From positions 1 through 38,652 of the forward strand of contig QCRZ01000006.1 of the NCBI GenBank assembly GCA_003209225.1: a DNA stretch of 38,652 nt, written 5' to 3'. Shown here piece by piece: positions 4,161 to 28,470 of the stretch. Within the stretch, counting starts at the first letter, position 1. Each line of letters opens with the position of its first letter. The notes below the pieces were generated by a model, which was not told the origin of the DNA, searched no databases, and saw only the letters and a program-made list of their open reading frames with translations. Source of the stretch: Pelagibacteraceae bacterium AG-464-B04. Its GTDB lineage: Bacteria; Pseudomonadota; Alphaproteobacteria; Pelagibacterales; Pelagibacteraceae. Position numbers and translations under genes: made by a program.

Positions 4161-4168
4161 TTTACTTA

Positions 4169-4408
4169 ATGAACAATAAACAAAAATATAACGATATATT
4201 TATAAAAACTTTATCTATAGATAGTAAAAAATTTAGTGAAGAAATTAAATACAATGAAATTCCCGAATGGGATTCGATTGGGCATATGACTCTTATGTCA
4301 GGTTTGGAAGAAGGGTTTAAAATTACCTTAGATACAGATGATATTGTTGATTTCAGTTCTTTTAAAAAGGGATTTGAAATACTTGAAAAATATGGAATTA
4401 AATTTTAA
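4169..4408 (+). CDS. acyl carrier protein
   Basis: 79 residues, typical of a free-standing ACP. EWDSIGHMTLM carries the DSx motif (Asp35-Ser36), and Ser36 is the predicted site of 4'-phosphopantetheine attachment. The rest fits a four-helix ACP (SGLEEGFKITLDTDDIVDFSSF matching helices II-III). It is more divergent than the housekeeping AcpP, as expected of a carrier dedicated to this operon. It lies eight bases after the transketolase C-subunit and ends the run; the next gene starts 59 bases on. Likely partners are the FabZ-like protein and the SDR, and possibly the radical SAM enzyme. Confidence 0.88.
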   Translation: MNNKQKYNDIFIKTLSIDSKKFSEEIKYNEIPEWDSIGHMTLMSGLEEGFKITLDTDDIVDFSSFKKGFEILEKYGIKF

Positions 4409-4467
4409 TTACTAGATTGTTGTTATAAAGTAATTGAAGAAAATATCATAAATGATAAAAAATATTA

Positions 4468-20603: not shown

Positions 20604-20748
20604 ACTTTTGCATAATTATTCAACTTTATTATAATAATTTTAACATTTAAATAGTTTATAATAAAACTTTATATTATTAATATTTGACGCTACAAAAATT
20701 TTTAAATTAACTTTGTTTGATCTAATTATTAGATTTTCTCCGATTAAA

Positions 20749-20778
20749 TTGACAATTATTCATTAATAAAACAATAAT
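20749..20778 (+). promoter_or_regulatory. candidate promoter for tRNA-Ser
   Basis: TTGACA (20749-20754), an 18-base spacer and AATAAT (20773-20778) lie about 64 bases before the mature tRNA 5' end, in the 238-base gap after the glycosyltransferase-like gene. The -35 is a perfect match and the -10 five of six. I see no other structure in this gap. Confidence 0.4.
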
Positions 20779-20841
20779 TAAAAATTGTAGTTGTGTTAGA
20801 TTCTAAAAAAATATATTAAATTCCTTGAACAACATAACTTG

Positions 20842-20931
20842 GGAAAGGTGGCTGAGCGGTTGAAAGCACTGGTCTTGAAAACCAGCAATGGGGCAACTCA
20901 TTCGTGGGTTCGAATCCCACCCTTTCCGCCA
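20842..20931 (+). tRNA. tRNA-Ser (anticodon UGA)
   Basis: The acceptor stem GGAAAGG (20842-20848) pairs with CCTTTCC (20921-20927), followed by discriminator G and an encoded CCA (20929-20931). The anticodon stem CTGGT/ACCAG (20869-20873, 20881-20885) encloses the loop CTTGAAA with anticodon TGA at 20876-20878, reading UCA and related Ser codons. A long variable arm (about 20886-20903), typical of serine tRNAs, and the T arm GTGGG-TTCGAAT-CCCAC are present. The CCA end abuts the stop codon of the convergent sdhE gene with no base between. Confidence 0.97.
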
Positions 20932-21192
20932 TCATTGCTTAAATTTAAAATTTTTTAAAAGATTTGATACATTGTTAATAGGAATTTTTTTTTTAAGATC
21001 TTTGTTTAAATACCACTTTAAAAGACTATCATCATCTATATTTAATAATTTTTCTAAATATTTTAATTCATTTATATTAAAATTATTAAGATATTTTTTT
21101 ACAAATTTGCTGAGTATTAAATCCATCTCCTTCATCCCTCGATGTTCAGATCTAAACAAAATTTTTTTTTTAAGCTGTTCTATATTGTTCAT
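20932..21192 (-). CDS. sdhE: succinate dehydrogenase flavinylation factor SdhE
   Basis: 86 residues, the family size. SEHRGMKEMDLIL contains the invariant RGxxE (Arg18-Gly-Met-Lys-Glu22) that binds the flavoprotein. LEKLLNIDDDSLLKWYL matches the conserved D..L..W helix. SdhE promotes covalent FAD attachment to SdhA in the cytoplasm. It is divergent from recG (33 bases between starts), an arrangement common in alphaproteobacteria. Its TGA ends exactly where the tRNA-Ser CCA begins on the other strand, so the two transcripts must overlap at their 3' ends. Confidence 0.9.
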   Translation of the reverse strand: MNNIEQLKKKILFRSEHRGMKEMDLILSKFVKKYLNNFNINELKYLEKLLNIDDDSLLKWYLNKDLKKKIPINNVSNLLKNFKFKQ

Positions 21193-21225
21193 AATTTAAT
21201 AAAAATAAGTATATAATATAAAACA

Positions 21226-24844: not shown

Positions 24845-24888
24845 TAGAATTTTTTATTATTTATATTATATTAAATCTTAAGATTATT

Positions 24889-24916
24889 TTGACAATTATA
24901 CAGATTTAAATATAGT
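24889..24916 (+). promoter_or_regulatory. strong promoter before two tiny ORFs
   Basis: A perfect TTGACA (24889-24894), a 16-base spacer and TATAGT (24911-24916, five of six) form the best promoter match I found in the window. Predicted initiation near 24923 leaves about 20 bases before the first tiny ORF. No regulator site was recognised. Confidence 0.7.
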
Positions 24917-24934
24917 GGATTAATTAATATTAAA

Positions 24935-24938
24935 GGAG
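24935..24938 (+). promoter_or_regulatory. Shine-Dalgarno for tiny ORF 1
   Basis: GGAG within AAAGGAGAC, five bases before ATG 24944. SD sequences this good are rare at gene starts in the window, which supports translation. Confidence 0.7.
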
Positions 24939-24943
24939 ACATA

Positions 24944-25012
24944 ATGGCTGATGTAATAGTTTTTTTTGCTGTGGCACACATAATTGCTACTCTATTTTAT
25001 AACATGCAATAA
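24944..25012 (+). CDS. tiny membrane peptide 1 (22 residues)
   Basis: ATG 24944 to TAA 25010-25012 encodes MADVIVFFAVAHIIATLFYNMQ, nearly all hydrophobic and long enough to cross a membrane once. It has a near-consensus promoter, a strong SD at ideal spacing and a terminator after the second ORF, so it looks like a real gene despite its size. I do not recognise a family. The ending FYNMQ resembles the ending YYWMQ of the next tiny ORF, so the two may be related. Possible roles are a small accessory subunit of a membrane complex, like CydX, a membrane regulator, or a type I toxin-like peptide. None is shown by the sequence. Confidence 0.65.
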   Translation: MADVIVFFAVAHIIATLFYNMQ

Positions 25013-25061
25013 ACAAATTTAGTGGAACACAATATAATAAAGAGAAAGAATTAGATAAAAT

Positions 25062-25066
25062 GGAGG
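25062..25066 (+). promoter_or_regulatory. Shine-Dalgarno for tiny ORF 2
   Basis: GGAGG, four bases before ATG 25071. It also contains an in-frame alternative ATG at 25060 for a 9-codon frame (MEDKWKLRF), which is less convincing. Confidence 0.65.
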
Positions 25067-25070
25067 ATAA

Positions 25071-25127
25071 ATGGAAATTGCGCTTTTAATTTTTCTAGCT
25101 GCTGCTATGTACTATTGGATGCAATAG
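25071..25127 (+). CDS. tiny membrane peptide 2 (18 residues)
   Basis: ATG 25071 to TAG 25125-25127 encodes MEIALLIFLAAAMYYWMQ, a single short hydrophobic segment. The GGAGG four bases upstream is among the strongest ribosome sites in the window. It lies 58 bases after tiny ORF 1 and before the shared terminator, so both are likely on one transcript. A TATAAT at 25033-25038 could give it an extra start site, though no -35 was found. The similar small size, hydrophobic core and aromatic-x-MQ end suggest an ancient duplication or convergent membrane function. The function is unknown. Confidence 0.6.
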   Translation: MEIALLIFLAAAMYYWMQ

Positions 25128-25153
25128 CTACAACTAATAATTTAATTAATTAT

Positions 25154-25212
25154 AAAAAAAACATCATTTTAACTAAAAAGGTATTTTCTTAGTTTTAATG
25201 ATGTTTTTTTTT
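25154..25212 (+). terminator. bidirectional intrinsic terminator
   Basis: Eight A plus CATCATT (25154-25168) pairs with AATGATG plus nine T (25197-25212). An inner AACTAA/TTAGTT stem (25171-25176, 25189-25194) is separated by a TT/TT internal loop, with a 12-base apical loop. The T tract serves the plus strand (tiny ORFs), and the A tract gives a U tract for the minus-strand gene that ends at 25233. Confidence 0.85.
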
Positions 25213-25232
25213 CGAAAAAGGATAATAAAAAA

Positions 25233-26687
25233 TTATTTAAAAATATATATTATTTTTTTTAAGATTATGACTTTTAACATTTTCAAGGCAGTGATTGAGA
25301 CCTTTAAATAAGTATCCGAAAATTTAGAAACTCCATATAATCTAGGATAATAATTGACAGGAATTTCAATAATTCTACAACCACTATTTATAAACTCAAT
25401 TGTTAATTCTGGAGCAAATGCAGGGCTATCAGAAATTATATTTTTTTTAATTTTATTATATTTCGTTTTCCAGAAAGCCCTATAAGTACAACCAACATCT
25501 GATAAAAGTGTTTTATTTTTTGACCAAAGTAAAGAAACAAAAGTAGCAAAAAGTTTATTAAAAAATATTCTAGGTTTATTCATATTAGCTTTATATTGTA
25601 TATAACTAGGATTTGTTCTTGTTCCTTGAACTACGTCATTATCCATCAAGCAATTTAACATTTTTTTTAAGTCAGAACTCCTGAAAGTTCCATCAGCTTC
25701 TGCTAAAACTATAATATCTGCTTTGGAATGCTCTATTGCTGTTTTTAAAGCGTGACCATAACCACGATAATTATCTGATAGAACTTTTGCACCATGTTTA
25801 ACTGCTATTTCATCAGTTTTATCTGAAGAAATTTTATTTGCTACAATAACATTATTAACAATTTTTTTAAAATCATCGATAACAAAAGATATAGTTTCTT
25901 CTTCAAGAAAAGCTGGGATAATAACATCAACAATAAATTTTTTATTAATTCTTAATTTTTTTTCTAGTTCATAAATATCTACTCTAGTGTTAATATTAGA
26001 ATAAGTGTTTTTAAGTACATGATACATTGGTAAGTCAACTTTATTAAACAATGAAAAAAGTGGAGTTTTTATACCATTATTTAGATTTTTAACGATTAAC
26101 TCAGTAAAAACTTTATTTATACAAATTAATCCAGTTCCAAAGTAATCTGAAATAATTTTATCGCTTTTTTCTATAGATTGAACAATTAGTTTTTTTTCCT
26201 CATCAATTGTTACAGCGTAATTTTTTAAATATTCTTCGGGAAAAACAAATTTTTTAATTCCCGCCATGATAGAAAATTGATTAACATTGATAGAATTGCA
26301 AAATTCTTTAAAATCATTTTCGTCATAATATTCATCCACCAATGTGACTAATGTATGTTCGTCTTTTTCCAAAAATTTATTAATATTTTTTATTGCTAAT
26401 AGTAATTCTAAACCTCCAACATTGCTTATTTTTTCATTAAATAATAATTCGACACCATCAAAGTCTTTAATATTTTCTTTAAAAATTTCTTCATGTCCTG
26501 TAATTACAACGTAGATTTTTTCCGGATTTAAATTTTGTTTTATAAGATTGATATGTCTATTTAAGAGTTTTTGATTATCAATTTCTATAAATGCCTTGAG
26601 ATTTTTTTTTTTATCTAATTTAATCCTATCGCCCTTACCACCAGCTAAAATAAAAGCTTTTTTTATTTTTTTTGCCTTTTCGATCAT
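25233..26687 (-). CDS. fusion of sugar nucleotidyltransferase and family 2 glycosyltransferase
   Basis: 484 residues. Residues 1-245 are a nucleotidyltransferase: AFILAGGKGDRIKLD (12-26) is the NTP-binding LAGGxGxR loop, KAFIEIDNQKLLNRHI follows, and LVTLVDEYY may hold a metal-binding Asp. Residues about 253-484 are a GT2 fold: DVIIPAFLEEETISFVIDDF, NVIVANKISSDKTDEIA, and VLAEADGTFRSSDL with a DxD-like ADG, resembling dolichol-phosphate-mannose-type transferases. A C-terminal hydrophobic segment (ALKMLKVIILKKIIYIF) may anchor it. It could activate a sugar or alditol phosphate and then transfer it to a lipid or glycan. The donor for the divergent GT-C neighbour is a plausible product. Confidence 0.85.
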   Translation of the reverse strand: MIEKAKKIKKAFILAGGKGDRIKLDKKKNLKAFIEIDNQKLLNRHINLIKQNLNPEKIYVVITGHEEIFKENIKDFDGVELLFNEKISNVGGLELLLAIKNINKFLEKDEHTLVTLVDEYYDENDFKEFCNSINVNQFSIMAGIKKFVFPEEYLKNYAVTIDEEKKLIVQSIEKSDKIISDYFGTGLICINKVFTELIVKNLNNGIKTPLFSLFNKVDLPMYHVLKNTYSNINTRVDIYELEKKLRINKKFIVDVIIPAFLEEETISFVIDDFKKIVNNVIVANKISSDKTDEIAVKHGAKVLSDNYRGYGHALKTAIEHSKADIIVLAEADGTFRSSDLKKMLNCLMDNDVVQGTRTNPSYIQYKANMNKPRIFFNKLFATFVSLLWSKNKTLLSDVGCTYRAFWKTKYNKIKKNIISDSPAFAPELTIEFINSGCRIIEIPVNYYPRLYGVSKFSDTYLKVSITALKMLKVIILKKIIYIFK

Positions 26688-26806
26688 TTATATCATTAAA
26701 ATTATTTAGATTAATCAACAAATCACACAAAATAGTAATCTTTATAATCTGAAAATTGTTAATTTAGTTCCTTTTAATTCCAAAAAAATTTTATTATAGA
26801 TTAATT

Positions 26807-28417
26807 ATGCTTAAGATTAAACACTTAATATATCTATCCATCTTTCTGATAACATCATACATTTTTTCTTCACTTTTTATTAACTTTAATTCACACCCAT
26901 ATGAAGATGCTGCGATGACAATGAGATACGCTTTAAATCTTGCAAATGGGCACGGACTTGTTTGGAATGTTGGTGAGCAGCCAGTCTCTGGTTCTAATGA
27001 TTTTTTATTTATAATTATAGTTGGTGGATTAAAATTTATTGGCTTAAATATAGAATCGGCAGTTTTATATGTAAATATTTTTTCTTTCGTATTAATTTTA
27101 TTTCTACTCTATTACGCATTAAATAAAATATTTAATGCAGGCACCTTAGCAACTTTATTTGTTTGTTTATTTTTCATATTTAGTCCAATTCTGTTCATTA
27201 GTTCAGCTTATTTTGGTACTGTGTTTTTTTCACTCTTTGTACTATCAACTTGGATACTAGCTTTAAATATTATTATAAAAGGAAAAAAAAATAGATCTTA
27301 TTTTTGGCTTTTTTCTATTTCTTCATTGTTGATGGGCATGTCTAGAGCGGAAGGATGTATTATTGCTCTTTTTATGTTTATTTCACTGTTATTTTCACTT
27401 AGCAGAAAACAAATTAAAGATTTATTTATAATTTTTACTTTCATTTTTTTATTCTTTGGTGGAGCATATTTAATCTGGAGATGGAATTATTTTGGATATT
27501 TATTTCCAAATCCATTTTATATAAAAGAAGGTGGAAATCTTTATTTAGCAAGTCTCCAAGAATCTACTCATAATGTGAGAAAATTAAGTCTTCCATTTAT
27601 TATTTGTTTGTTTAGTGGTTTTGTTTTTAAAGATACTAGAAAAATTTCTTTTCAACTATTTATTCCCGTTTTTGGAGCTACTTTAATGTGGATGATTATA
27701 TCTAACTGCGAAATATGCCACGGAATGAACTTTGCTGGGCGTTATCAGTTTCCTGTAATGGTCATATTGATTCTTTCATGGTATCCTCCGAGTATTAAAA
27801 TATTTACAAATTATATTAAACCAAAATTAAAAAACTTTAATAAAAAAACCAGTTTATCTCTAAAGCTTATATATATTTTTCTACTTATATTTGTCCTAGC
27901 AAAAGAAATTGAAAGTTCAAGAAAATGGACCAGACATGTTTATATAAAAGATGGAAGATATGATGTGGCTATTATGTTAAAAAAATACATAAAAAATAAT
28001 TATACAATGGCAGTAACAGAAGCTGGGCTATTGCCCTTATATTCTACCTGGAAAACTTTGGATGCTTATGGTTACAATGATTCATGGATAGCTCATAATG
28101 GAACTATTGATAAAGAATACTTAAGTAATTTTTCACCTGAAATAATAATGTGGCACGAATATTTTTCTCCAATAACACCACCAAAAAAAGAAAGGGAAAA
28201 CGATTCATGGTTTAAAATGGTAAAAGTTTTAAAGGATTATGCAGAAGAAAATGAATATGTTTTAGCAGCTGTTTATGGCGTACAAAGTGATAATACCCAT
28301 TATTACTATGTAAGCCCTAACATTGTTGAAAAAGATGAAATTGTCTCATCAATTAAAAATATGGATTATTATTGGTATGAGTCAGGTGAAATAAGTACAA
28401 ATTTCAATGAAAAATAA
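26807..28417 (+). CDS. GT-C-type polytopic membrane glycosyltransferase (predicted)
   Basis: 536 residues with about nine to ten hydrophobic segments in the first 370 and a soluble C-terminal domain (about 385-536). The first loop, HPYEDAAMTMRYALNLANGHGLVWNVGEQPVSGSND, matches the GT-C pattern of an acidic catalytic residue, R-Y-x-x-N-L-x-x-G-x-G, found in arabinofuranosyl- and mannosyltransferase-like proteins that use polyprenyl-phosphate sugars. It would act from the periplasmic face. It is divergent from the GT2 fusion (119-base gap), which resembles enzymes making lipid-linked sugar donors. Acceptor unknown. Confidence 0.78.
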   Translation: MLKIKHLIYLSIFLITSYIFSSLFINFNSHPYEDAAMTMRYALNLANGHGLVWNVGEQPVSGSNDFLFIIIVGGLKFIGLNIESAVLYVNIFSFVLILFLLYYALNKIFNAGTLATLFVCLFFIFSPILFISSAYFGTVFFSLFVLSTWILALNIIIKGKKNRSYFWLFSISSLLMGMSRAEGCIIALFMFISLLFSLSRKQIKDLFIIFTFIFLFFGGAYLIWRWNYFGYLFPNPFYIKEGGNLYLASLQESTHNVRKLSLPFIICLFSGFVFKDTRKISFQLFIPVFGATLMWMIISNCEICHGMNFAGRYQFPVMVILILSWYPPSIKIFTNYIKPKLKNFNKKTSLSLKLIYIFLLIFVLAKEIESSRKWTRHVYIKDGRYDVAIMLKKYIKNNYTMAVTEAGLLPLYSTWKTLDAYGYNDSWIAHNGTIDKEYLSNFSPEIIMWHEYFSPITPPKKERENDSWFKMVKVLKDYAEENEYVLAAVYGVQSDNTHYYYVSPNIVEKDEIVSSIKNMDYYWYESGEISTNFNEK

Positions 28418-28470
28418 TTCTGTAAAGAACCCAACTTTTATTTTTTTGATATGCTTATTTGCAAATTTTT

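Follow-up and report, generated by a model that had tools for sequence, protein, structure and literature searches.

A probable strain-specific transcription unit for two single-span membrane micropeptides in an intergenic gap of a Pelagibacteraceae genome

Does the intergenic gap at positions 24889–25211 of the window, i.e., the whole 38,652-nucleotide stretch of Pelagibacteraceae DNA analyzed here, contain a gene of its own? An earlier note described it as a self-contained transcription unit for two tiny membrane peptides, located in the only gene-free gap above 300 bases. The latter point proved incorrect, as positions 4161–4467 (307 bases) and 20604–21225 (622 bases, with only a tRNA-Ser inside) form gaps of this kind as well. 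A promoter-like TTGACA-N18-AATAAT is also present in the longer of these two gaps (20749–20778), upstream of the tRNA-Ser (20842–20931). As for the unit itself, we consider it rather probable, judging from the DNA sequence, that the gap is a real, strain-specific transcription unit, which would give rise to a bicistronic mRNA for two duplicated single-span membrane micropeptides.

The plus strand of the gap begins with a near-consensus sigma-70 promoter, TTGACA-N16-TATAGT (24889–24916). Eleven of its 12 positions match the consensus, and the two hexamers named in the earlier note, TTGACA at 24889–24894 and TATAGT at 24911–24916, are present exactly, with a 16-nt spacer. The genome to which the window belongs (G+C content 0.29) is a draft of 966,640 bases in 50 contigs, estimated to be 63% complete, of which 934 kb was analyzed; genes for genome-wide counts were called crudely, as non-overlapping long ORFs. 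Within these 934 kb, the pattern TTGACA-N15..19-TATANT occurs at four sites, all of which are intergenic, against an expected number of 0.37 in intergenic DNA. The other three sites lie directly upstream of genes that we take, from their sequences, to encode DksA, the ribosomal protein L21 (rplU), and an acyl-CoA ligase, and the dksA promoter of this class is present again in another member of the genus (G004). Since the four intergenic sites exceed expectation, the other three lie close to genes, and one recurs in a relative, this promoter class is genuine and rare in this genome. The genome-wide comparison thus supports the description of the locus as a self-contained transcription unit, its promoter belonging to a class found otherwise before dksA, rplU, and the acyl-CoA ligase gene. 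A possible second promoter for the downstream ORF, TAAACA-N17-TATAAT (25010–25038, plus strand, 10 of 12 positions), is weak, given that a score of at least 10 is the best score on 18 of the 76 intergenic strands of at least 200 bases.

Downstream of the promoter, two short ORFs are located on the plus strand, each preceded by a Shine–Dalgarno (SD) sequence at the spacing of 4–5 bases that had been claimed. ORF1 (24944–25012) encodes the 22-residue peptide MADVIVFFAVAHIIATLFYNMQ and follows a GGAG (24935–24938) 5 nt before its ATG, and ORF2 (25071–25127) encodes the 18-residue peptide MEIALLIFLAAAMYYWMQ and follows a GGAGG (25062–25066) 4 nt before its ATG. Such sequences are scarce in this organism: GGAG or GAGG precedes only one of the 35 genes in the window, in agreement with the earlier observation that most of these genes lack an SD, and 60 of the 903 called genome-wide. 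Among those preceded by the stronger AGGAG or GGAGG are, as we presume from sequence reading, rpsC, rpoA, rpsP, atpH, groEL, and the genes for proteorhodopsin, a peroxiredoxin, and several periplasmic binding proteins. Judged by this list, strong SDs, which are rare in this genome, seem to mark genes of expected high expression. The proposal that the unit was selected for high expression is therefore supported, since the rare promoter class otherwise precedes dksA, rplU, and the acyl-CoA ligase gene, and a strong SD is elsewhere in this genome a feature of genes typical of high expression. Strong SDs (e.g., those at loci L103–L162 of the same genome) might also serve as a predictor of expression in such genomes.

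Each peptide is predicted to form a single membrane span and contains neither Lys nor Arg, and ORF1 has one His within the span. The maximum hydropathy over 14 residues is 2.64 for ORF1 and 2.10 for ORF2, in keeping with short hydrophobic single-span peptides. The C-termini of the two peptides, ATLFYNMQ in ORF1 and AAMYYWMQ in ORF2, are related, and their C-anchored similarity is above that of shuffles of the same peptides (p = 0.002); none of the 760 longer genes of the genome ends in MQ. At the DNA level, a 27-nt direct repeat, 70% identical, links ORF2 to the 3′ end of ORF1. The G+C content is 0.33 in the ORFs vs 0.17 in the remainder of the gap (p = 6e-4), and the codon-usage scores of both ORFs are in the top 5–8% of stop-free intergenic stretches, which is weak evidence when taken alone. 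The SDs, the G+C contrast limited to the ORFs, the similar C-termini, and the lack of RNA structure outside the terminator lend indirect support to the claim of two tiny membrane peptides, and both ORFs are likely translated.

A genome-wide count places these features in context. Only two SD-led hydrophobic ORFs of 14–59 codons exist in the intergenic DNA of the genome, and both are in this gap, against 0.12 in shuffles; the same-strand pair of such ORFs is the only one in the genome, with 0.01 expected, although these figures are optimistic because the feature was chosen before the tests were designed. Judged by this context, the unit is more than chance. Its layout is that of a stand-alone gene for a small membrane protein, i.e., its own promoter, an SD, an ORF of fewer than 50 codons with one predicted span, and a terminator.

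The terminator is a hairpin at 25154–25211 with T runs on both strands, common to the unit and to the convergent gene at 25233–26687. Its folding energy is −19 kcal/mol on the plus strand and −21 kcal/mol on the minus strand (z = −6.1 and −8.2, respectively, vs shuffles), which confirms the strong bidirectional terminator reported earlier. The rest of the predicted transcript is no more stably folded than its shuffles (z = +0.75), and the SDs are predicted to be accessible because this RNA body is unstructured.

These folding results bear first on the alternative that the locus is a type I toxin pair, in which two Ibs-like hydrophobic peptides would depolarize the membrane and be restrained by an antisense RNA from the opposite strand. 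The very short length and the single hydrophobic helix are shared with the Escherichia coli toxins Ibs, ShoB, TisB, and ZorO; IbsC, of similar size and hydrophobicity, has 19 residues, small hydrophobic toxin ORFs are often tandemly duplicated, and tandem duplication of such ORFs was a search criterion that yielded ZorO (PMC8309996). In addition, yonT/yoyJ is a polycistronic toxin pair (PMC5848175). A weak minus-strand site at 25177–25149 with a perfect TATAAT (25149–25154) is also directed across ORF2, as an antisense promoter would be, but it matches at only 9 of 12 positions, the commonest best score of intergenic strands (46 of 76), and sits in the terminator arm. The mRNAs of type I toxins often have a long or SD-hiding leader. 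In contrast to these toxins, the unit has a short leader and two perfect, open SDs on one predicted mRNA with no excess structure, so that the structure-hidden translation of a primary toxin mRNA is not seen here. Neither peptide has a basic residue. A toxin pair is thus an unlikely explanation, although it is the leading alternative and the perfect TATAAT on the minus strand speaks for it.

In the second alternative, the transcript of about 290 nt would act as a regulatory RNA, and the ORFs would be incidental. A strong promoter and a terminator do enclose a stretch below normal gene length, as such an RNA would require, but no Rfam covariance model matched the unit even in a permissive search, and the body folds like its shuffles. 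The suggestion of a dual-function or structured small RNA is consequently supported by neither folding nor Rfam. Moreover, two well-spaced perfect SDs, a rise in G+C content limited to the ORFs, and the similarity of the C-termini would be left unexplained. An mRNA is favored because the body is unstructured and has no Rfam match, the C-termini are alike, the MQ ending is unique, and the ORFs are G+C-rich; we regard a regulatory RNA as rather improbable.

The surroundings of the unit are those of a variable site. Upstream lies an M48 peptidase gene that is conserved in 93 of 118 genomes, and in 19 of the 29 relatives that were read a tRNA-Lys follows 35–72 bases past the M48 stop codon and is itself followed, in several, by tgt. 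Here, the M48 gene and the tRNA-Lys are separated by an insert of 3.6 kb (24845–28470), which contains the micropeptide unit, a fusion of an NTP transferase and a GT2 glycosyltransferase (25233–26687, minus strand), and a large membrane protein. At 1e-40, none of 196 other family genomes yielded a match to the fusion gene. Three other members of the genus that were read also lack the short M48–tRNA-Lys arrangement, but their DNA differs from the insert found here. Because the two genes lie close together in most relatives and different DNA occupies the site in other genus members, the unit is regarded as cargo of a variable site. Phage attachment at the tRNA-Lys was considered as well and rejected, as the tRNA end is not repeated at the other border.

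Searches for relatives are consistent with a restricted distribution. DNA comparisons within the genus returned AT-rich chance matches only. No relatives of the ORF1 peptide were found in 147 family genomes, or of the ORF2 peptide in 197, the weak matches lying inside other genes or lacking an SD-led small ORF. The tail pattern of ORF1 recovered no ORF with this tail in 247 family genomes, and that of ORF2, with one mismatch permitted, gave chance stretches but no hydrophobic SD-led ORF in 397. A search of 297 genomes for the architecture SD-ATG-MQ-stop combined with a hydrophobic peptide listed matches within ordinary genes, with no second case among those listed. When the two peptides were aligned without gaps to all short ORFs of the genus member G004 (977 kb) that start with ATG, nothing rose above background. 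Phage records yielded no match, and viral contigs yielded 19 tail matches with no small hydrophobic ORF among them. The one match among genome contigs, a 52-codon open stretch in a Saprospiraceae genome, was rejected for lack of similarity. ORF1 showed no relationship to entries of Pfam, NCBIfam, PHROGs, or PDB, a comparison confined to this peptide as ORF2 is below the 20-residue limit. Thus, the comparison of the gap across related genomes that the earlier note had proposed recovered neither the reading frames nor the DNA in any genome searched; cross-species conservation of the reading frames was found neither in these sets of family genomes nor among the short ORFs of G004, although distant relatives could escape such a search because the first-look filters are coarse at 18–22 residues. 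A chance origin, in which a fortuitous promoter and short ORFs, or the remnants of a decayed gene, lie in an AT-rich gap of a variable insert with only the terminator of the convergent gene being functional, would agree with this lack of conservation, the weak codon score, and the choice of the feature afterwards, but it is the least probable explanation, as it would have to account for an almost unique promoter, a pair of SDs, C-termini that match, and a terminator occurring together in the correct order.

Under the preferred reading of a bicistronic mRNA for two membrane micropeptides, RNA polymerase would start about 7 bases past position 24916, and the mRNA of about 290 nt would have its 3′ end at the hairpin. 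Ribosomes would then bind at the two perfect SDs and produce two related single-span peptides of 22 and 18 residues, whose C-terminal likeness suggests an origin by tandem duplication, and both peptides would insert into the membrane. These uncharged peptides may sit in the inner membrane and associate with a larger protein or complex there, in the manner of small accessory subunits. Such a role as abundant accessory membrane micropeptides is put forward tentatively; it is preferred over a locked toxin because of the high-expression signals, the SDs that are not occluded, and the absence of cationic residues. It is more speculative still that two uncharged, tandemly duplicated micropeptides, carried as island cargo and expressed at a housekeeping level, might act jointly on a membrane complex or against phage.

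Among known systems, the closest parallels are bacterial small membrane proteins of fewer than 50 residues, such as YohP, CydX, KdpF, and AcrZ. CydX, KdpF, and AcrZ are small membrane proteins that are either stand-alone or accessory. Like these proteins, ORF1 and ORF2 each have one predicted span and their own SD; unlike them, they are shorter than nearly all such proteins, and no known partner gene adjoins them. Even YohP of E. coli, whose membrane insertion depends on SRP together with SecYEG or YidC, has 27 residues (PMC7549839). If the reading is true, micropeptides of 18 and 22 residues could be among the smallest known, a claim that we hold doubtful. The unit would be a new orphan small-membrane-protein gene, unusual for how small it is, for the signals of high expression it carries, and for being confined to one genome among those searched. 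It would belong to an already known kind, since at least three intergenic short ORFs with ribosome-binding sites, independent of downstream genes, were reported earlier in the SAR11 strain HIMB5 (PMC6429828). Those ORFs resemble the present ones in having a ribosome-binding site and in lying between the genes of an AT-rich genome of SAR11, the group to which the present organism probably belongs, judging from genome size, G+C content, and the genes it carries, but they were found by conservation (RNAcode), whereas the unit described here has no detectable relatives.

If the unit is real, even extremely streamlined genomes acquire micropeptide genes that are missed by gene callers and express them strongly, and genes of this kind can form island cargo varying between strains. 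It would also offer a usable screen in AT-rich genomes, namely a near-consensus promoter together with a strong SD, both of which are rare and mark high expression.

Separately from this locus, a 35-residue ORF led by AGGA, MKEYFEKKFGQGTAFDLDYGKLLIVALLVYIAFFK, was observed to be identical in two members of the genus (L270, G000:C17:8660–8764, minus strand; L271, G004:C8:1674–1778, plus strand), and it has no match in Pfam or NCBIfam. By its sequence, it is a better conserved micropeptide candidate than ORF1 and ORF2.
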